Positions 34,706 to 44,245 of a stretch of DNA of 64,000 nucleotides are shown here, in pieces. This stretch comes from Brachycybe producta (Eukaryota; Arthropoda; Diplopoda; Playtdesmida; Andrognathidae). Each line of letters starts with the position of its first letter. Position 1 is the first letter of the stretch. Under the pieces are notes generated by a model. It was given only the letters and a program-made list of their open reading frames with translations, searched no databases and was not told where the DNA came from. The translations under genes and the position numbers were made by a program. The DNA lies in NCBI GenBank assembly GCA_036925085.1, contig JAUPFP010000029.1, positions 558,001-622,000 of the forward strand, given 5' to 3'.

Positions 34706-35015
34706 TGTAACATCCCCGTTTCCGTAGGGTTAGTAGAGAGATCTCTACTAGCCATCTAGAAGTGTCGAATGGATGTTGATGATTAAGTCTTTCGGTCTAT
34801 TGGCTCCTGTGTTGCTACTTAACCACCAGGGACACAAGGGTCGGTACCTCAGGAGACCTGTGGTAGAGAATATTGTAGAGATGTCGTCTTACACTCGGCT
34901 GCTGGAGACTTCGTTGTCCGGTGGAAACATCGGCTACGTGGCGGCTATAATTCTAAGTCCCACTCCCATAAAATGACTGAGTCCACACATTGAATTCGTA
35001 TGTTGAAAATGCTCT

Positions 35016-35021
35016 TTTATT
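35016..35021 (-). promoter_or_regulatory. Poly(A) signal AATAAA in 3' LTR
   Basis: AATAAA on the minus strand, about 115 bases downstream of the TATA box. This copy would serve to end the element's transcript. Confidence 0.6.
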
Positions 35022-35122
35022 CAATAAACAGAGAGTCCTGTAGATTGAGAGATATCGCATCGGTCTTAAGCATAAAGACGGTTTGTCCGATCTGCCTGAT
35101 CTATCCGATCTGTCCTCTCAAT

Positions 35123-38100
35123 CTACAACCTCTTGTATTTATACTCAAAATACAATACAAACATCTGATTATGATAACAAAGGCTCCAGGTGTGTCCAAG
35201 TCTCTTGGACACACTCGGACCTAGAAGTGAACTATCACTTAACAAGAAACGAAAACATCTATAAGATGTATAAATTATAACAATACAGAAGGATCTTCGT
35301 TGATCCTTCTTCAAAAGATAACAATACAATTTAATTACGAAAAGGACTTCTGTATCCTTTTCGTCACACTTGACCGGTGTTTCACTGGCCAAAAGTTCTA
35401 TATCGTCAATTCTTCTAGGAATTATCCTATAAGAATTGACGATACAATTCATTTGCCGTCTTTTCCTCATCCTGTAGGGTAGGGAGGTATCGTCTGGATA
35501 ACCTCCCGCCCACCCCCAAGCATGAGGTGAAACCCATCGATCAAAATACTTAAAACTACAGGGTGTTTCAATACAACAACGAATTCTGACGATGAATTCG
35601 TTACACCCCCCAACTAGTTTATAAGCACGTCCCTGTGCTTCCAAAAATAAGACCTTGCAAAAATACCCGTTGGTATAAAATTTAGGCATGCAGTAAAAAT
35701 ACAAAACGAAAAGTATAAAAATACTAGAAATGTGTTCCGAATAAATGCAGGCGTGCATAAACAAAACAAGTAGGGAAATACTCAAAACGATAAACACAAG
35801 TATAAAATAGTACTTAAAAATACAAAGTCCAAGGCCTCTAGTAGTCCAAAATGGCTCATCCTTGAGCAGGATCTTCTTTGCTCCTGCGCAAGTCTCTTTC
35901 CAGAAGGATGGCGGTTTCGGCAGACCTTCGGTGACTTCGGTGACTTTTGCGTTCCTCTGCATGACTGCTGGTCTCGTCAAAAAGGATGTAGGTCCAGGAG
36001 ACGTTACAGAAGCCCTAGGACTCCCAGGAGCTTCCATGTTGCTCCTGGCGGTAGTTTTCGGCTCCGTTACTTCGACGTCGTCCTTGTATGTTGGCCCAGG
36101 CTCACGAGGGCGGACATCCTTCAGTTTTACTCGATTATTTGGCCCATGATGAGAGAAGCTGTGGATTTCCAACCTTAATTGATTCCTCAGGCCTCTGTTG
36201 AGTCGGTTTCGTTTGACGAGAGGCCTTCGTTGCCTCCAACGCCAAACTCCGCGAACCAACAGGTCTTCTGTGAGACCTGAGTTGGCAATCTCGACTGGAA
36301 GGGCAGCCCCCTTATTTTCCATAAACCGGCCATCGTAATCGCACACGATGGTAAACCAAATTTGCATAAGTAAAACAAAACTTTTGATGCTTTCCGTAAT
36401 CGAGCGATAGAAATTTTCACAATTTTCCACGATGGATGGGTGAAAACTTTTCAAAACAAAAAGATGATGAGAAATAGTGCCTGTACATGTGCTCAACACA
36501 TGGGCAAAGCTGTCAGTGATGAAGAACATAAACAATAGGACCCGGATCCATAGTGGTGCGAGGCTAGTAGACATTTCACTTAATGTATCCCTCCGCCCAC
36601 GTGTTTCTTCCATGCTTGGTAGCGTCATTGACCGCTCCCTGTTTACTTCCTCATTTGGGACGTCATTTCCATCTGTGGCGTCACTAGCATCGATATCATC
36701 GTCCATTTTTGTTGTTTCATCGATAACTTCCGCGTTTTTCACCTCCATTTGAAATTCCATCGGCGAATTTACATCTTTTTCGTCGATTTCCATCGTTTCT
36801 TCAGGAATTTCGCTGATTTCTTCAACAAATCCAATGGTTTCCATGGTAAAATTCGTCTTATTACCATATTCTCTGGTGAATTTCATCGCATCTTCGCCAG
36901 GTAAGTATGAGAATTGCTGCTGGTTATCGTCTGCTGCCATTTTTCTTCTAATTTCGACGTTACGGTCAGAATGCTTTCGGATTGCTTTCGTAATTATCTC
37001 AATTTCTTCTTCATCCTCAGAAGATTCGATCCAAGCATTTTGGCATCTGCAGTGTCCACAACATCTCTTCTTACGCGAAGGTAAGTTTTTCTTCTTGACA
37101 AACGCTGTCATTTCTTTTTCTTTTACAGGTTCCGATTCGGAGTCTTCTGGCGATGAGTTACCCATGGACTCCAGGGTGTCTCCAGTCGTTGGAACATTGG
37201 GTCCGTCCTTTTGGTAAGTCTCATATAGTGGTCTCAGGTTTGCAACGTTTACAGAGTCCTCCACTAATCTTCCAGCTCGATTCTCGTAACTCAATCGGTA
37301 TACGGTGTCCGATACTTTCGACACAATCGTATATCCCTGTCTCCATTTCGTTAAGAACTTCTTGTTCTGTCCAGGCCTGATTCGCATGTCTCGTACAAGT
37401 ACTTTCTGTCCGATTTGGTACTCGTAAGGCTTCTTATGCCTTTGGTCGTAGTACTTCTTTCGACGATCATGTGCTGCTTTCAGGTTCGTCCTGGCTGTTC
37501 TTAGTTCTTCTTCTTGGCGTTCTTCCGCCTGTTGTCGAACGTCCACGAGGTTTCCTGCCTCGTTATCCACGATAACTGGTCGTTCTGGAACTAAGGTGTC
37601 TACTTTAGTTCTGGGCTCCCTCCCAAACATGAGTCTGTACGGCGTAAACTTCGTGGATGAATGTACAGATGAGTTGTACGATTCCAGAACTTCATCCAGT
37701 TTTGTAGCCCAATCAGTCTGGTTCTTCGCAGGAGTCAGATACTTTTTCATAGTCTGAATAATGCTTTTATTCGTCCTTTCGGCGAGACCATTACTTTGCG
37801 GATGGTATGCAGTTGTTGTTTCGTGCTCTATCTTGTTTATTTTCAAGAATTCTTGAGTGTTCTTCGCAACAAACGGCGTCCCTCGATCCGAAATAAGTTT
37901 CTCTGGTATCCCGAAGATTCTCTTTACATCTTTTGCTAGGAAGTTCATTACGATTAGTGCGGTTGTGCTTTTCACTGCTTTAGCAATGCAATATCGAGTG
38001 GCGTAATCGACTGCCAACAAGATGTGCTTGTTTCCTCCAACCGACGGTACTAATGGTCCAATGAAATCCATTCCCCAGCAATCACAAGGCTTTCCAATGG

Positions 38101-41100
38101 GCATTTCTTGAAGGAACCCTTCAGGTTTCTCCGTACCCAGCTTGTGTAATTGACAAATCTCACATGAGCGCACATATTCGAATATGTCGTGCTTCATGTT
38201 ATTCCAATAAAATCTTTGCCTGGCTCGATTCCAGGTCTTAGTTTGTCCTTCATGACCAGCATCCGGCTCGTCATGGCATAATCTCATTACTTCAGGGATG
38301 AGATGTTTTGGAACCACATTCACGAGTGTGGGTACGGAACTTCCGTGAAACACACAAGCGAACAACTTGTTGTCGTAATCGCAAAACAACTTATGAAGAG
38401 GTGACTCCGGTTGGTTACGCAACTCCTCACGAATCTTCAAAATCTCTGGGTCCAATTTTTGCTCCACCTTCCAATCCCATTGTAAGGTTACATTAAAGAT
38501 CACACTGTCATCTAGGTCTTCCGCTTCTGGGATGGCCTTCCAGTTAACAGGCACTCCTGCTGGATATCTTGAGAGGCAATCGGCTTCGATGTGAAGTTTC
38601 CCCTCCTTGTAGATGATTTTGTAGTCGTACTCCTGCATTAGCAGCTGCCAGCGACCAAGTCTTCCTTCCAGACGTGCTGCAGTCTTCATGTAGCATAATG
38701 CATGGTGATCCGTCACAATTGTAAAGGGCTTCTGGAACAGGTACGGCCGGAACTTGGTGACTCCATAGATTACTGCTAGGCACTCCTTATCCGTCGTACT
38801 GTAGTTCTTTTCCGCGTCCCTTAGAATTCTGGAGACACTTCCAATGATCTCCTTTCTTCGTTTATCCTCTGACTTCTGGTAAAGCATCGCTCCAATTCCG
38901 TATCCACAGGCATCAGTATGCATAAATATTGCAGCCTTCGGATCATATACGGCAACCAATGGAGATTTCGACAACATATTCTTTAGCGTGCGGAATGCAT
39001 TCTCGCAGTCAACTGACCATTTGAACGGTATATCTTTACCCGTAAGGTCTGACATTGGCTTCGCTATGTTGGCAAATCCAGGTACATGCTTTCGATAATA
39101 ACCCGCCAATCCAAGAAAACTTCTGATTGCGGTTACATTGTCAGGAACTGGGAAGTTCTTTATGGCGACAACCTTATCTGGATCTGGCCGAATTCCATCA
39201 GGCGAGATCAGGTGTCCCAAATACTTCACTTCTTGGAATCCAAAGAAGCATTTCATTGGATGCAACTTCAGGTTTGCTGTCCTCAGCAGGTCCAAGATAG
39301 TTCTCAGTCTTTCCAAAAATTCTTCGAACGTTCTTCCAAACACTACGATGTCGTCAAGGTAGACAAGGCACGTTTCCCATTTGTGCCCGGCGAGTAGGAT
39401 GTCTAATGCACGTTGCATCGTGGCAGGAGCGTTTCGGAGTCCGAAAGGCATTCTTACGAACTCGAACAACCCTCGATGAGGTGTAAATGCGGTCTTCTCG
39501 ATGTCGCTTTCTTCCATCTCGAACTGCCAGTATCCACTCTTCATATCCAGCGTTGCGAAGTAGCATGCTCCTCTCATGGAGTCTGCCTTTGTAATCGCGT
39601 TCAACTTCCGATAATCTACACAGAAACGGTAGGAGCCATCCTTCTTCTTTACAAGGACGATGGGCGATGCATACGGCGATTTCGATGGCCTTACAACCCC
39701 AGATTTCTTCATCTCCTCTAGCGTCTCATCAATTACGATGCGTTCCCCAGGCCCGCATCTTCGTAACGTGTCTCGAACAGGTAAATTATCTCCAGTTTCG
39801 ATCTTGTGTTTGGTCAAATTCGTAGCTCCCAGGTCCTTAGATGAAAAGGCGAAGATCGGTTGGAACTCCTTCAGTAGGATCGTCAACTCTTCTCTTTGAT
39901 CATCTGTCAGTTCAGGACCAAGTTGAATTTCTTTCTCAAAATCAACGGGTGCTTCTCCGATGTCTCTAAAGTTTTCCTCTTCGGAAACTTTGCAGGCTTG
40001 CTCTTCTTCTAGTTCTTCTAGAAGTTCGAAGTGTCCAATAGTCTCGCGGTCTCCAATCCCCACGGACTCCAGTGTGGTATTCAGGAGTTGGACTTCCAGT
40101 TGTGATGTCCCATTCCCTTGTAGCACACTGCTGGCCACAACGATGCCTTTTCTATTAAAGAGACTATCGTTCGTTTCAATCATGAGTACTTCGTTTTCCT
40201 CAATGATCCGCCCTGCAGCTACTTTGAGGTTCAAAGCCTGGCCCGGATTTAACGTAATCCTTCCTTGGGCTTTTACGCAGCTTTCCTCTCTAGCTTTTAT
40301 GGCATAGGAGTTATCCAGATGGCTATTCTGAGCACATCCCTCCTCTTTTAACTCTTTGAAGAAATTCCAGGGAAGGCTACTACGCGCACTTCCTTTCTTC
40401 AACAATTCTCGTGTTCCTTCGTAGAACATCTCATTAGCAAAGTAGATCTTGGAGGTCTTCATGGAAATGATGAGATCAAACGCAGCTCCCAGGTCTCTCC
40501 CCAGCAGTGCTTCTCGTTTTCCATCTATGATGAGCATCCTTGCCGTTACTTGCTTTCCGTTCAACTCGAACGTTGGCCACAACTGACCAAGTACCTTAAT
40601 CGGTACCCCTCCTACTGCGCCTAATGCAGGTGCGTTCCGGATTGGTCCATATCGAAGTCCGTACTCTTTGGCCATTGTGCCTGACAAGATAGTGAACCCA
40701 GTTCCGCTATCCGCCAAAAATCGAACTGGTGTGCCGTCAACCTGAATGGTAATCTTGGCAACACTTTCATCGGGCGTAGTATCTCCTACCTCGATGAGTT
40801 CGCATGAGGTGAGTAGGCTGTCTACAGTGATTTCGACACTCTTTCGACAACAAGCCCTACTTCTCAACAAATCTCTAACTTCAACGGATTCAATAACCTC
40901 GCTGTTCGCAGGGATCCTGCTGGTATCATCTCCTCTACCGATAGCTGCGTTTACAATAGCCTTCTTGGATTTCTTAGCATCAGTTTCGGCCTTGCCCCAG
41001 GCAATAACATTGGATGTTACATCTTGAGGGATTTCCTGAGCAACATTGCTTATCCCCGGTATACACGCCGCAGAATTCTGTTGGGTCCTTCCCTCAATTC

Positions 41101-41710
41101 CGACTGGCACCGCAGAATTCTGTTGGGTCTCTCCCTCAATTCTGTCTTGATTAACTCCAGTTTCCATGGCTTCCACAATTCTCTTTGCTTCCTCCAAGCT
41201 ATTCGCGTAAACTACCATAGCTTTCGTAGGTGACCAGATGATGGGTTCCGGAAATATCTCCTCGATGATTTCTCCCCTTCGACCAGTATCCTTTCGCAGC
41301 TTCTTATATTTTCGTGAATTCCGTTGTCGTTTTCCATTCGTAATGCCGACTAACAACTCCGACGATTGCTCAGGGAGTCCTTGAGTGTCCAAATCACATG
41401 GTCTCTTCGGTGCTCCAGCCTTTGGTCTAGTTGTGGCGACATTCGAAATGCCGACTAACAACTCCGACGATTGCTCAGGGAGTCCTTGAGTGTCCAAATC
41501 GCATGGTCTCTTCGGTGCTCCAGCATTCCGTCTAGTTTTAGTGACATTGGTAGCTTCGCTCACGCCCCTATTCCCCCCCAACAAAGCTTTATCCACAATG
41601 TTTCGGGAATTGGCGATCGCTGTTTCGTTTCGATTTTGTCGTTTTCCAGAGGGTTTTCCGTTCTTAAAGGGCGGTAGGCCCCTCTTTACTGCCACCCTTT
41701 CTAGTTTAAA
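35123..41710 (-). CDS. pol: Pol polyprotein (protease-RT-RNase H-integrase plus C-terminal extension), expressed by -1 frameshift
   Basis: The open frame begins right after a TGA at 41711-41713 and has no ATG. Entry is by -1 slip from gag on TTTAAAC, giving a Gag-Pol of about 2,757 residues. Numbering from the GTG at 41695: aspartic protease DSG at 329-331; RT with YLDD at 779-782; RNase H with Asp928 in TDACG, the DKEC glutamate and TDHH; integrase with an HHCC zinc finger, then Asp1210, Asp1270 and Glu1306 (35 residues between the last two); a GPY/F-like C-terminal module ends near 1490. Residues 1491-2030 have no recognised domain, and 2031-2190 are encoded by the 3' LTR. Oddities: two in-frame tandem duplications in the N-terminal linker (49-118, 182-209). 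In the RT, 12 residues between Asp705 and Ser706, the conserved block that usually contains YPLP, are absent, which probably inactivates it. Confidence 0.93.
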   Translation of the reverse strand, partial: FKLERVAVKRGLPPFKNGKPSGKRQNRNETAIANSRNIVDKALLGGNRGVSEATNVTKTRRNAGAPKRPCDLDTQGLPEQSSELLVGISNVATTRPKAGAPKRPCDLDTQGLPEQSSELLVGITNGKRQRNSRKYKKLRKDTGRRGEIIEEIFPEPIIWSPTKAMVVYANSLEEAKRIVEAMETGVNQDRIEGETQQNSAVPVGIEGRTQQNSAACIPGISNVAQEIPQDVTSNVIAWGKAETDAKKSKKAIVNAAIGRGDDTSRIPANSEVIESVEVRDLLRSRACCRKSVEITVDSLLTSCELIEVGDTTPDESVAKITIQVDGTPVRFLADSGTGFTILSGTMAKEYGLRYGPIRNAPALGAVGGVPIKVLGQLWPTFELNGKQVTARMLIIDGKREALLGRDLGAAFDLIISMKTSKIYFANEMFYEGTRELLKKGSARSSLPWNFFKELKEEGCAQNSHLDNSYAIKAREESCVKAQGRITLNPGQALNLKVAAGRIIEENEVLMIETNDSLFNRKGIVVASSVLQGNGTSQLEVQLLNTTLESVGIGDRETIGHFELLEELEEEQACKVSEEENFRDIGEAPVDFEKEIQLGPELTDDQREELTILLKEFQPIFAFSSKDLGATNLTKHKIETGDNLPVRDTLRRCGPGERIVIDETLEEMKKSGVVRPSKSPYASPIVLVKKKDGSYRFCVDYRKLNAITKADSMRGACYFATLDMKSGYWQFEMEESDIEKTAFTPHRGLFEFVRMPFGLRNAPATMQRALDILLAGHKWETCLVYLDDIVVFGRTFEEFLERLRTILDLLRTANLKLHPMKCFFGFQEVKYLGHLISPDGIRPDPDKVVAIKNFPVPDNVTAIRSFLGLAGYYRKHVPGFANIAKPMSDLTGKDIPFKWSVDCENAFRTLKNMLSKSPLVAVYDPKAAIFMHTDACGYGIGAMLYQKSEDKRRKEIIGSVSRILRDAEKNYSTTDKECLAVIYGVTKFRPYLFQKPFTIVTDHHALCYMKTAARLEGRLGRWQLLMQEYDYKIIYKEGKLHIEADCLSRYPAGVPVNWKAIPEAEDLDDSVIFNVTLQWDWKVEQKLDPEILKIREELRNQPESPLHKLFCDYDNKLFACVFHGSSVPTLVNVVPKHLIPEVMRLCHDEPDAGHEGQTKTWNRARQRFYWNNMKHDIFEYVRSCEICQLHKLGTEKPEGFLQEMPIGKPCDCWGMDFIGPLVPSVGGNKHILLAVDYATRYCIAKAVKSTTALIVMNFLAKDVKRIFGIPEKLISDRGTPFVAKNTQEFLKINKIEHETTTAYHPQSNGLAERTNKSIIQTMKKYLTPAKNQTDWATKLDEVLESYNSSVHSSTKFTPYRLMFGREPRTKVDTLVPERPVIVDNEAGNLVDVRQQAEERQEEELRTARTNLKAAHDRRKKYYDQRHKKPYEYQIGQKVLVRDMRIRPGQNKKFLTKWRQGYTIVSKVSDTVYRLSYENRAGRLVEDSVNVANLRPLYETYQKDGPNVPTTGDTLESMGNSSPEDSESEPVKEKEMTAFVKKKNLPSRKKRCCGHCRCQNAWIESSEDEEEIEIITKAIRKHSDRNVEIRRKMAADDNQQQFSYLPGEDAMKFTREYGNKTNFTMETIGFVEEISEIPEETMEIDEKDVNSPMEFQMEVKNAEVIDETTKMDDDIDASDATDGNDVPNEEVNRERSMTLPSMEETRGRRDTLSEMSTSLAPLWIRVLLFMFFITDSFAHVLSTCTGTISHHLFVLKSFHPSIVENCENFYRSITESIKSFVLLMQIWFTIVCDYDGRFMENKGAALPVEIANSGLTEDLLVRGVWRWRQRRPLVKRNRLNRGLRNQLRLEIHSFSHHGPNNRVKLKDVRPREPGPTYKDDVEVTEPKTTARSNMEAPGSPRASVTSPGPTSFLTRPAVMQRNAKVTEVTEGLPKPPSFWKETCAGAKKILLKDEPFWTTRGLGLCIFKYYFILVFIVLSISLLVLFMHACIYSEHISSIFILFVLYFYCMPKFYTNGYFCKVLFLEAQGRAYKLVGGCNEFIVRIRCCIETPCSFKYFDRWVSPHAWGWAGGYPDDTSLPYRMRKRRQMNCIVNSYRIIPRRIDDIELLASETPVKCDEKDTEVLFVIKLYCYLLKKDQRRSFCIVIIYTSYRCFRFLLSDSSLLGPSVSKRLGHTWSLCYHNQMFVLYFEYKYKRL
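35136..35143 (-). promoter_or_regulatory. TATA box in 3' LTR
   Basis: TATAAATA on the minus strand, the copy of the 43776-43783 motif. In a provirus-like insertion this copy could drive transcription into flanking DNA toward lower coordinates. Confidence 0.5.
35606..35615 (-). other. Polypurine tract
   Basis: On the minus strand AGTTGGGGGG immediately precedes the 3' LTR terminus TGTAAC, the position expected for plus-strand DNA priming. The uninterrupted purine part is short (six G). It is translated within the pol frame (Val-Gly-Gly, then Cys of the LTR). Confidence 0.7.
35606..36975 (-). other. 3' coding extension of pol with hydrophobic segments
   Basis: After the integrase module the pol frame stays open for about 540 residues. 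In order: a basic-Cys cluster (RKKRCCGHCRC near residue 1550) followed by an acidic stretch; a long acidic region; a hydrophobic segment LWIRVLLFMFFITDSFAHVL near 1715-1735; a basic, Arg-rich part; then hydrophobic FKYYFILVFIVLSISLLVLF near 1960-1980 and another near 1988-2003. Two or three possible membrane segments recall the position of envelope-like genes in some Gypsy elements. I see no separate start, no furin-fusion peptide arrangement and no known envelope signature. Function unknown. It could be an in-frame accessory domain. Confidence 0.6.
41070..41153 (-). repeat. 42-bp tandem duplication in pol
   Basis: Two adjacent 42-bp copies encode EG(E/R)TQQNSA twice (pol residues about 182-209). 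The period is a multiple of three, so the frame is kept. Confidence 0.85.
41342..41551 (-). repeat. 105-bp tandem duplication in pol
   Basis: Two copies of 105 bp encode AGAPKRPCDLDTQGLPEQSS followed by ELLVGI twice (pol residues about 49-118). They differ mostly in their last third. It lies between the frameshift site and the protease, a linker likely to tolerate length change. Confidence 0.9.
41648..41710 (-). promoter_or_regulatory. Programmed -1 frameshift signal (UUUAAAC + pseudoknot)
   Basis: Gag ends GAT TTA AAC TAG, which contains the canonical heptamer T TTA AAC (41710-41704) directly before the stop (41703-41701). The pol frame overlaps gag by only these 10 bases and is in the -1 register. 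Downstream, AAAGGGTGG (41700-41692) pairs with CCGCCCTTT (41674-41666), nine pairs with one G-U. The loop hexamer AGAGGG (41685-41680) pairs with CCCTCT (41653-41648), giving an H-type pseudoknot with loops of 6, 5 and 12 bases. The spacer is 3 bases, or 6 if the three basal A-U pairs are open, which falls in the usual 5-9 range. Confidence 0.88.
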
Positions 41711-43395
41711 TCAGCCGGGTTTTCCTCTCGCAGGAACTTCTTCTGCCCGTTCTCGCTGACGACAAAATACTGCTGGCCATTTTTTCCAGTGGCCATTCCA
41801 TGTTGAACAAGTCCAACGGTTCCATCCGCAACTACTTTCTTTGGGCAGTTTCTTGAAAAGTGACCCTTCTCGTGACAGTGATAACACTCTACTGTACTGA
41901 GATCTTTCAGGGTTTTACTTCCATCTTGCGTTTGCTGACCATTGTAGTTTTTCTTCTGCGGATATCTTTGGTTCCATTTACGACCTTGTTGCTGATTCGA
42001 GTTCTGGTTGGTCTTCTGTTGCTCTTGGTTATTTGAATTTGATGGAGTCGAGTTGTTCGTTGGGTCCGCTTGATCTTGAGTAACAACCGCGTAAGAACGT
42101 CCTCCGTCCATTACTGCTTGCGTCTGTTTGGCATTTTGGCGTTGGTTATTCTTCTGTGGACCCTTGGAGACCTGGGTCGTCGTTTGTTGACCCATCGTTC
42201 CTTCCGGTATCCATAACCCATCAGCCATCAAAACTTCCTCGGTATCCTTGATATATGTCGTGTACAGCTTCAGATTGCCATTCGGTGCATTCTGTGTAGC
42301 ATTACGTATAATCGGATGAAGTTTCTGCCGAAATTCCACAATCCGGTATTTGTCGGTTACCCCAGGTAACACTTTCCTACTCAAGTCAAGGTAGCGACCC
42401 AAAAACTGATTGGTGTCCTCTCCTTTCCTTTGGAGCATGGTATCCAATCTCAGCTTCAGTTGCACTAACTCGTCTCGACGTCCAAATCTTTCAATTAACT
42501 CGCTCCGTATGAAGTCCCACGTGGTTTTCCCTCTATTCTCTTTGTAGAAATTGGATAACCAACGTACTACGTCCCCTTCTACCGCTTTACGTAGGTAGTA
42601 GGTCTTGTGGACGTTGCTCCAGTCCTCCAGATCTGCGATACTCTCGTAGTCCTCCAGAAAGGTGTATACAGACGTCAATCCTTTGAAGGTCTCCAGATTC
42701 CGGAGTGGGTGAAGACTCTTGTACTTCCCATCCAGCTCCTCACAGGTCCGATGACGATTGCAAATTGGATTTCCTTCCAGCTCTTCTACGCTGGGATCCT
42801 CACTTGTTAGGCTTTCATCCTCTAGCTGGTCAGGGTTCTCTCTCCGTAGAATAGGAGTCTCAGGTAGGCGACCTCTCTGGGTCCCTCCACTCTTCTTCAG
42901 CATGAGCGGCGTCTGGAATACATTAACCTGTCTTAGGTTTTCAGCGTGGGCCGACGAGGGCTCCCCTTCAGTGTCCAATCCAGGAATCACTGTATGACGC
43001 TGAGATTCAGCGTGGGCCGACGAGGGCTCCACTCCGGTATCCACTTCTCGGACTACCGTATGACGCTGAACTGTACTTACACCACGCCCGCTCCGGAGTA
43101 ACATCGATCCTGATGGTTGCTGGGCTTCGAACCAGGCCATCAGTCTCTCCCGTCTTTCAGCACTTAGATTTTGAAGGATACCTTCAAGTGGATCTTCTCC
43201 ACCCATTTGGTTTGTATCGTCCTTCTCCCGTGTCTTCGACTTCGATTTCGGTCTGCCTTTCTTTCCTTTACCACCTGGTGTAACTCCGACATCATTGGTA
43301 TTCTCTACTGGATCTGTAGTGAGGTACCCCGCACCTCCACCATTTTGTAACATCCCCGTTTCCGTAGGGTTAGTAGAGAGATCTCTACTAGCCAT
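41701..43395 (-). CDS. gag: Gag polyprotein (capsid-like plus CCHC zinc knuckle)
   Basis: 564 codons. A capsid-like region around residues 215-380 (LETFKGL, TYYLRKAVEGDVVRWLSNF, WDFIRSELIERFG, FRQKLHP) fits the retrotransposon Gag family. A Gln/Asn-rich linker follows, then a single CCHC knuckle CYHCHEKGHFSRNC at about 504-517, expected to bind the element's RNA. The first in-frame ATG (43395) lies 50 bases inside the 5' LTR. The next (43354-43352) is also in the LTR, so either start places the primer-binding site in coding sequence. A 66-bp tandem duplication (residues about 109-152) repeats SAHAE and QRHTV motifs. The stop TAG follows the slippery heptamer, so most ribosomes make Gag and a fraction makes Gag-Pol. 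Confidence 0.93.
   Translation of the reverse strand: MASRDLSTNPTETGMLQNGGGAGYLTTDPVENTNDVGVTPGGKGKKGRPKSKSKTREKDDTNQMGGEDPLEGILQNLSAERRERLMAWFEAQQPSGSMLLRSGRGVSTVQRHTVVREVDTGVEPSSAHAESQRHTVIPGLDTEGEPSSAHAENLRQVNVFQTPLMLKKSGGTQRGRLPETPILRRENPDQLEDESLTSEDPSVEELEGNPICNRHRTCEELDGKYKSLHPLRNLETFKGLTSVYTFLEDYESIADLEDWSNVHKTYYLRKAVEGDVVRWLSNFYKENRGKTTWDFIRSELIERFGRRDELVQLKLRLDTMLQRKGEDTNQFLGRYLDLSRKVLPGVTDKYRIVEFRQKLHPIIRNATQNAPNGNLKLYTTYIKDTEEVLMADGLWIPEGTMGQQTTTQVSKGPQKNNQRQNAKQTQAVMDGGRSYAVVTQDQADPTNNSTPSNSNNQEQQKTNQNSNQQQGRKWNQRYPQKKNYNGQQTQDGSKTLKDLSTVECYHCHEKGHFSRNCPKKVVADGTVGLVQHGMATGKNGQQYFVVSENGQKKFLREENPADLN
42941..43072 (-). repeat. 66-bp tandem duplication in gag
   Basis: Two 66-bp copies encode QRHTV..(L/V)DT..EPSSAHAE twice. 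The period keeps the reading frame. It is located in the N-terminal, pre-capsid part of Gag. Confidence 0.88.
43325..43342 (-). other. Primer-binding site, tRNA-Ala type
   Basis: Minus strand TGGTGGAGGTGCGGGGTA starts three bases after the 5' LTR. It is complementary to a tRNA 3' end TACCCCG-CACCTCC-A-CCA: CCA tail, A73, acceptor strand CACCTCC and part of the T arm. CACCTCC opposite GGGGGTG leaves U at position 70 facing G3, the hallmark of tRNA-Ala. The match stops after 18 bases, a normal PBS length. Confidence 0.8.
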
Positions 43396-43655
43396 CTAGA
43401 AGTGTCGAATGGATGTTGATGATTAAGTCTTTCGGTCTATTGGCTCCTGTGTTGCTACTTAACCACCAGGGACACAAGGGTCGGTACCTCAGGAGACCTG
43501 TGGTAGAGAATATTGTAGAGATGTCGTCTTACACTCGGCTGCTGGAGACTTCGTTGTCCGGTGGAAACATCGGCTACGTGGCGGCTATAATTCTAAGTCC
43601 CACTCCCATAAAATGACTGAGTCCACACATTGAATTCGTATGTTGAAAATGCTCT

Positions 43656-43661
43656 TTTATT
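43656..43661 (-). promoter_or_regulatory. Poly(A) signal AATAAA in 5' LTR
   Basis: AATAAA lies about 90 bases downstream of the start predicted from the TATA box, so it falls in the R region as expected for LTR elements. Confidence 0.55.
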
Positions 43662-43775
43662 CAATAAACAGAGAGTCCTGTAGATTGAGAGATATCGCAT
43701 CGGTCTTAAGCATAAAGACGGTTTGTCCGATCTGCCTGATCTATCCGATCTGTCCTCTCAATCTACAACCTCTTG

Positions 43776-43783
43776 TATTTATA
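43776..43783 (-). promoter_or_regulatory. TATA box of the element's promoter
   Basis: TATAAATA on the minus strand. Transcription would start near 43750, leaving a leader of about 355 bases before the gag ATG. Confidence 0.65.
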
Positions 43784-43830
43784 CTCAAAATACAATACAA
43801 ACATCTGATTATGATAACAAAGGCTCCAGG

Positions 43831-44242
43831 TGTGTCCAAGTCTCTTGGACACACTCGGACCTAGAAGTGAACTATCACTTAACAAGAAACGAAAACATCT
43901 ATAAGATGTATAAATTATAACAATACAGAAGGATCTTCGTTGATCCTTCTTCAAAAGATAACAATACAATTTAATTACGAAAAGGACTTCTGTATCCTTT
44001 TCGTCACACTTGACCGGTGTTTCACTGGCCAAAAGTTCTATATCGTCAATTCTTCTAGGAATTATCCTATAAGAATTGACGATACAATTCATTTGCCGTC
44101 TTTTCCTCATCCTGTAGGGTAGGGAGGTATCGTCTGGATAACCTCCCGCCCACCCCCAAGCATGAGGTGAAACCCATCGATCAAAATACTTAAAACTACA
44201 GGGTGTTTCAATACAACAACGAATTCTGACGATGAATTCGTT
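43831..44242 (-). promoter_or_regulatory. Series of short hairpins in U3
   Basis: Five inverted repeats lie in U3: 43831-43853 (TGTGTCCAAG/CTTGGACACA), 43927-43950 (AGAAGGATC/GATCCTTCT), 43977-44004 (ACGAAAAGGA/TCCTTTTCGT), 44041-44084 (TATCGTCAATTCTT/AAGAATTGACGATA) and 44218-44242 at the LTR edge (AACGAATTC/GAATTCGTT). They may be factor-binding dyads or RNA structures. In the 3' LTR the same bases lie within or just beside the end of the pol frame. Confidence 0.7.
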
Positions 44243-44245
44243 ACA

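Follow-up and report, generated by a model that had tools for sequence, protein, structure and literature searches.

Within the window analysed here, the whole 64,000-nt stretch of contig JAUPFP010000029.1 of Brachycybe producta, a 63-nt segment at the gag-pol junction of a Ty3/gypsy retrotransposon (41648..41710) is very probably a -1 programmed ribosomal frameshift signal with a predicted H-type pseudoknot. The element lies on the minus strand, as do all of the features located below. Ribosomes would translate gag until UUA occupies the P site and AAC the A site, and would then pause at the predicted pseudoknot. In a minority of them, both tRNAs would slip back by one base onto UUU-AAA and translation would continue into pol to give Gag-Pol, while most would terminate at the UAG next to the heptamer, releasing Gag. 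The purpose would be a low ratio of Gag-Pol to Gag for particle assembly, and such a low ratio is established for retroviruses and Ty elements. Slippage itself, its efficiency and the use of the products in particle assembly are what we infer from established cases, as we also infer that the RNA folds into the pseudoknot.

The slippery heptamer TTTAAAC, read T_TTA_AAC (41704..41710), adjoins the gag stop TAG (41701..41703). The gag frame reads GAT TTA AAC TAG. As a preliminary description of the region had proposed, the heptamer is in phase and directly before the stop, and pol is in the -1 frame and overlaps gag by the heptamer plus the stop, exactly 10 nt. The gag frame is open back to 43395. 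The -1 frame is shut by a TGA immediately 5' of the heptamer and then stays open to 35123 (pol, 35123..41710, 2195 codons). In the third frame a stop lies within the heptamer, and the gag frame past its own stop meets a TAA after 4 codons; therefore, a -1 slip within these 10 nt is the simple recoding event that reaches pol. The junction combines the features by which a frameshift signal is recognised: an in-phase X_XXY_YYZ in the overlap, a long downstream frame in -1, and a structured stimulator a few nucleotides 3'. The heptamer alone is unremarkable in frequency, with 35 occurrences in the window against 37.4 expected.

Downstream of the stop, two stems can be drawn in H-type order, with the pairing that had previously been folded by hand. 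The first stem (S1) has nine pairs, one of them U-G, between the 5' arm AAAGGGTGG (41692..41700) and the 3' arm CCGCCCTTT (41666..41674). The second stem (S2) has six pairs, between AGAGGG within the S1 loop (41680..41685) and CCCTCT, 12 nt beyond S1 (41648..41653). The loops measure 6, 5 and 12 nt, and the last base of the S2 3' arm falls exactly on 41648, the end that had been assigned to the segment. S1 starts 3 nt past the heptamer, and its G-C core starts 6 nt past it. Before loop penalties, the helix energies are -17.2 for S1 and -12.7 for S2, with a sum of -29.9. In a pseudoknot scan that applied fixed H-type rules to 75 nt, this two-stem sum was matched by none of 300 dinucleotide shuffles (best -26.6) and none of 600 random 75-mers of the window (best -20.0), so the capacity for pairing is above chance. 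A covariance-model search against Rfam returned no frameshift-element family, its three matches being below threshold with E values of 7.5 to 8.9.

Related families and covariation of the stems

The genome (295 Mb, 442 contigs) was searched with a 55-nt pattern comprising the heptamer, the stop and S1. It gave 126 matches within 3 mismatches, and all of the matches listed were exact. Because the copies of the window's own family are identical or nearly so, and thus too alike for covariation, other families were surveyed. The survey pattern was the YLDD motif of gypsy reverse transcriptase (RT), built so as to exclude the window's family, which also excluded any family sharing its base at one codon. 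It had 957 matches, and the sample was 60 loci of about 100 matches listed, all on one contig (C1): 20 picked for differing motif spellings and 40 more.

Together with the window, 61 loci were thus compared, and a recognisable Gag zinc knuckle was found in 46. Within 300 nt, [G/T]TTAAAC was present in the gag phase at 35 of these 46 loci, out of phase at 5 and absent at 6. By our own estimate, the chance of an in-phase motif is about 1% per locus. Many of the 35 loci are near-copies, and the independent evidence therefore amounts to about five family groups, not 35 events. Among the 15 loci without a knuckle, three (L049, L056 and L060) still have the motif together with a family stem. Additionally, a second pattern, consisting of the slip site and the start of S1, had 44 matches in the genome versus 1 for the reversed control; of the 44, 4 within survey loci and 18 others were read, the latter at 150 bases.

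The loci fall into families that share the heptamer class and differ in what follows it. Family A contains the window, L075 and L076; L001-L008 are identical to the window, L009 is a decayed relative. L077/L087 is a diverged relative. The heptamer is U_UUA_AAC followed by UAA in family B, G_UUA_AAC followed by UAG in family C, and U_UUA_AAC followed by a UAC or UAU codon and then UAA or UAG in family D. In families E, F and G, the heptamer is G_UUA_AAC and a large hairpin holds the gag stop in its loop. In L014, L015 and L043, which belong to these last families, the gag UGA in the hairpin loop would pair in the second stem of the pseudoknot, unlike the arrangement in the window's family. In families D (L010, L011) and E/F (L014, L015), pol is in -1 relative to gag through to the RT frame; in B, C and L077, the -1 relation was seen at the junction only. 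In the RT tree, the window clade, a C/D/E-G group and a clade H (L017, L028) are separate, with split supports of 0.83 to 1.0; the branching order is not firm, so frameshifting may have been either lost in H or gained elsewhere.

Related copies with gag and pol in one frame, which had been named as a refutation of frameshifting, were found in part. The copies of the window's own family and the other families keep N_TTA_AAC, in favour of frameshifting, and the distant clade H is single-frame. We lean slightly towards a wider statement, that several co-resident Ty3/gypsy families all use N_UUA_AAC with U or G in the first place, each with its own compensated stimulator and with the stop after the heptamer or in the loop.

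It had also been proposed that covariation across related copies would show whether the stems are real. Compensatory changes were indeed found in the S1-type stems of other families, and S2 shows none. An alignment of the window's type of junction (A5) comprised 12 of 32 A/B/C/L077 junctions, omitting the identical L001-L008, the damaged L009 and L012, L035, L075, L076, L084 and six B copies. Here, 85.2% of the S1 cells were paired, whereas slid versions gave 33-59%, and pair 13-46 of S1 shows five types (CG, GU, AU, GC and UG). Of 500 shuffles, 4 attained the observed covariation score and 3 the observed percentage paired. In an alignment of the window, L075, L077 and eight B copies (A1, 11 sequences), all 77 cells of the inner 7 pairs of S1 are intact, and one pair varies between C-G, U-A and U-G. 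For the E/F/G hairpin (A3, 12 of 13 sequences, L057 being omitted), 95.1% of cells are paired versus 19-42% when slid, and at three pairs both bases have changed, each time in the same 4 of the 12 sequences. The number of both-side cells, the percentage paired and the covariation score of this alignment were each reached by 0 of 500 shuffles.

The diverged relative L077 provides a further comparison. L087 shows that this locus is a real gag-pol junction, with a gag frame ending in DLN-stop and a pol frame open over the 161 codons examined. The Gag end is 35% identical in protein to that of the window. In DNA, 35 of 45 bases of the junction element are identical to the window, compared with 90 of 173 upstream and 82 of 197 downstream, and the downstream value is no better than that of 15 shuffled controls (36-48%). 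S1 pairs 2 and 3 are U-A and G-C in L077 versus A-U and A-U in the window, both compensatory. Both S2 arms are kept, L3 is 15 nt long versus 12 nt in the window, and L1 also differs. Judged from these sequences, L077, a single locus, is the best evidence for selection on the pseudoknot and suggests that such selection has acted. A genome search for more copies of this kind retrieved L077 itself and nothing else.

Several results weigh against the proposed signal, beginning with the uniformity of the window's own family, which is too great for its pairing to be tested. In A5, the number of pairs changed on both sides was matched by 348 of 500 shuffles and the number of such cells by 32 of 500, and versions slid by +2 and +3 have equal numbers of both-side cells (7). 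In A1, the covariation score was reached by 100 of 500 shuffles and the number of pairs changed on both sides by 467 of 500. In A3, 310 of 500 shuffles equalled the tally of pairs changed on both sides and 498 equalled that of pair types; the four sequences with these changes are also closely related to one another. Family D (A4, 14 of 21 junctions) is 99% paired, with one-sided changes only. S1 pair 1 is lost in L077, and S1 is damaged in L009, which is decayed, and in L012, whose RT frame is broken. Some of the conservation near the stems may reflect the protein sequence, as residues of the pol linkers are shared there. Finally, clade H has the knuckle and the protease in one frame, a single-ORF (open reading frame) layout with decay stops.

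Alternative explanations

The alternative that survives best accepts slippage and changes the stimulator, which would be S1 alone or a nested hairpin, S2 being a chance match of a G-rich and a C-rich stretch. We regard it as unlikely. A nested-only fold of 60 nt reaches -17.1 with the arms paired differently: the S2 5' arm pairs with the S1 3' arm, and part of the S1 5' arm pairs with the S2 3' arm. Energy alone is therefore not decisive. The arm-swapped fold is opposed by the compensations in S1, and the two-stem energy, unmatched among the shuffles and random 75-mers, speaks for both stems together.

The comparative record of S2 is also mixed. No S2 covariation was found in the family alignments tested. 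S2 has shrunk to about 4 bp in family B (scan, L073); in some copies of family C, an S2 of about 5 bp can be drawn by eye. Within its loop limits, the scan detected no S2 in L013 of family C or in L010 and L011 of family D, where none was found otherwise. In families E, F and G, a 5-bp S2 joins the hairpin loop, with the gag UGA, to downstream bases; it is complete in 11 of 12 sequences and has no changed pair, and in L014 and L043 the scan picked helices other than those drawn here. On the other side, the S2 arms are kept in the window clade, in the decayed L009 and in L077, the last of which keeps them in spite of differences in L1, in L3 and in the sequence further downstream.

A second alternative, that Pol is made independently of frameshifting by reinitiation or internal initiation at a pol-frame ATG, or from a spliced mRNA, appears highly improbable. 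It bears on the earlier claim that pol has no ATG, which is correct for the first 164 codons and fails beyond them: codons 165 and 182 are ATGs, and both precede the protease, which lies at about codon 320. The first of them lies about 480 nt past the gag stop, however, and Pol made in this way would not require a slip site in phase where gag ends; 35 of 46 loci nevertheless have U/G_UUA_AAC in phase, and the stems behind it covary.

The frame break might also be a one-base indel in a decaying single-ORF copy, with the heptamer there by chance. Single-ORF relatives do exist in the genome (L017/L028), and the window copy carries an in-frame RT deletion of its own, yet the site is common to 126 copies, the long terminal repeats (LTRs) of the element are 100% identical, and the heptamer recurs in other families, together with the frame relation wherever the frames are intact; by this sharing the indel is refuted, and we give it next to no weight. 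Equally negligible is readthrough of the gag UAG in the style of murine leukaemia virus, for although a stop followed by a pseudoknot resembles a readthrough layout, the TAA 4 codons on excludes it in the window, further gag-frame stops are present in L077, L073, L013, L010, L014 and L015, and the gag stop itself differs by locus (UAG, UAA or UGA).

The element housing the junction

The junction lies in a Ty3/gypsy LTR retrotransposon, recognised by its LTRs, a target-site duplication, the Gag knuckle and the Pol order of protease, RT, RNase H and integrase. The 5' LTR (43346..44245) and the 3' LTR (34706..35605) are 900 bp each with ends read by eye, TGTAAC...GTTACA, and are identical to each other; the match block measures 904 bp. 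The 4-bp repeat AAAT on both flanks constitutes the target-site duplication, its ends likewise being placed by eye. On this sequence evidence, the family is apparently young and of high copy number. A candidate primer-binding site, TGGTGGAGGTGCGGGGTA (43325..43342), lies 3 nt past the 5' LTR and within the gag frame.

The gag ORF (41701..43395) has 564 codons, and its first ATG is within the 5' LTR. An alternative start of Gag would be a later Met (codon 65), beyond the primer-binding-site-like stretch, instead of the ATG inside the LTR (43325-43395). The CCHC zinc knuckle (PF00098, 41839..41889) scored at the gathering threshold. Two 64-bp direct repeats in gag (42940-43069) are 81% alike, with a 66-bp spacing that keeps the frame. 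A search of Gag against 5.8 billion proteins gave 7436 candidates, of which 0 were at E <= 0.001.

In pol, which runs on into the 3' LTR, Pfam matches were obtained for an aspartyl protease (PF13975, 40493..40753), RT (PF00078, 39212..39649), RNase H (PF17919, 38717..39019), the integrase zinc-binding domain (PF17921, 38141..38314) and the integrase core (PF00665, 37799..38089). The N-terminal linker (41335-41544) contains two 105-bp direct repeats, 92% alike, whose spacing keeps the frame. The RT of the window copy (39212-39649) lacks about 12 conserved codons found in related families, an in-frame deletion. The exact word at the deletion junction occurs once in the whole genome, so the deletion seems confined to this copy, which, despite its identical LTRs, probably has a defective RT.

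The pol frame is open for about 700 codons beyond the C-terminal region of integrase (35123-37243), whereas the other two frames have 29 and 50 stops there. This extension has hydrophobic stretches near codons 1713 and 1969, reaches 480 nt into the 3' LTR and had no Pfam match; it is possibly an extra C-terminal product. For Pol as a whole, 4009 proteins were found at E <= 0.001. The best 120 of these 4009 have 29-50% identity, and their named members are from a pseudoscorpion, a crayfish, spiders, a tick, fish and a frog, which points to an animal host; no close annotated relative is among the 120.

Comparison with known frameshift signals

The heptamer U_UUA_AAC is used at coronavirus ORF1a/1b and at the pro-pol junctions of human T-cell leukaemia virus type 1 and bovine leukaemia virus, the full heptamer of equine arteritis virus is G_UUA_AAC, and that of PEG10 is G_GGA_AAC. 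The coronavirus and leukaemia virus signals are like the present one in heptamer, short spacer and downstream pseudoknot; in line with the absence of an Rfam match, this similarity is functional only. Equine arteritis virus has a site of the type found in families C, E, F and G, but it is a nidovirus, unrelated to retrotransposons. Passages of a review by Atkins et al. 2016 (PMC5009743) count U_UUA_AAC as one of the heptamers on which mammalian ribosomes shift most readily and give the equine arteritis virus ORF1a/1b shift site as G_UU(A).

A clean signal of this viral type had been thought surprising in a retrotransposon, which was too strong. According to the same review passages, a 2003 survey found pol in -1 in 28 of 51 animal LTR elements, many with classical heptamers (PMC5009743). 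As many animal LTR elements use -1 frameshifting, the signal represents no new mechanism. CsRn1-like elements (AgCR), as described in part of PMC2582038, mix -1 and same-frame gag-pol layouts. They and other animal -1 LTR elements likewise have two frames with pol in -1 and same-frame relatives mixed in. The passages on AgCR give no heptamer or covariation-tested pseudoknot (PMC2582038), whereas here N_UUA_AAC and stems are kept across families. Gypsy-derived frameshifting with a pseudoknot is also described, in the review passages, for the mammalian genes PEG10 and PNMA3 (Ma3) (PMC5009743); these, however, are domesticated host genes, as opposed to a mobile high-copy element.

In a literature search on frameshifting and this heptamer in gypsy elements, no title or abstract opening among the entries listed reported it, a scope that does not show absence from print and that leaves PMC13172572 ('uuaaac', insect gypsy) outside. 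What is new is this family, the recurrence of its heptamer class across co-resident families and the comparative evidence; the kind of signal was already known.

With related families in one genome, slip site and stems alike gain comparative support, and it becomes possible to trace how a stimulator evolves while subject to coding constraint. To our knowledge, the case for a frameshift signal in an animal retrotransposon has mostly been made from its heptamer and reading frames. The slip site N_UUA_AAC, familiar chiefly from RNA viruses, here turns up repeatedly in a gypsy lineage. If the proposed reading is true, the co-resident families together with the single-ORF clade would make it possible to follow directly how a frameshift signal arises, drifts and is lost.

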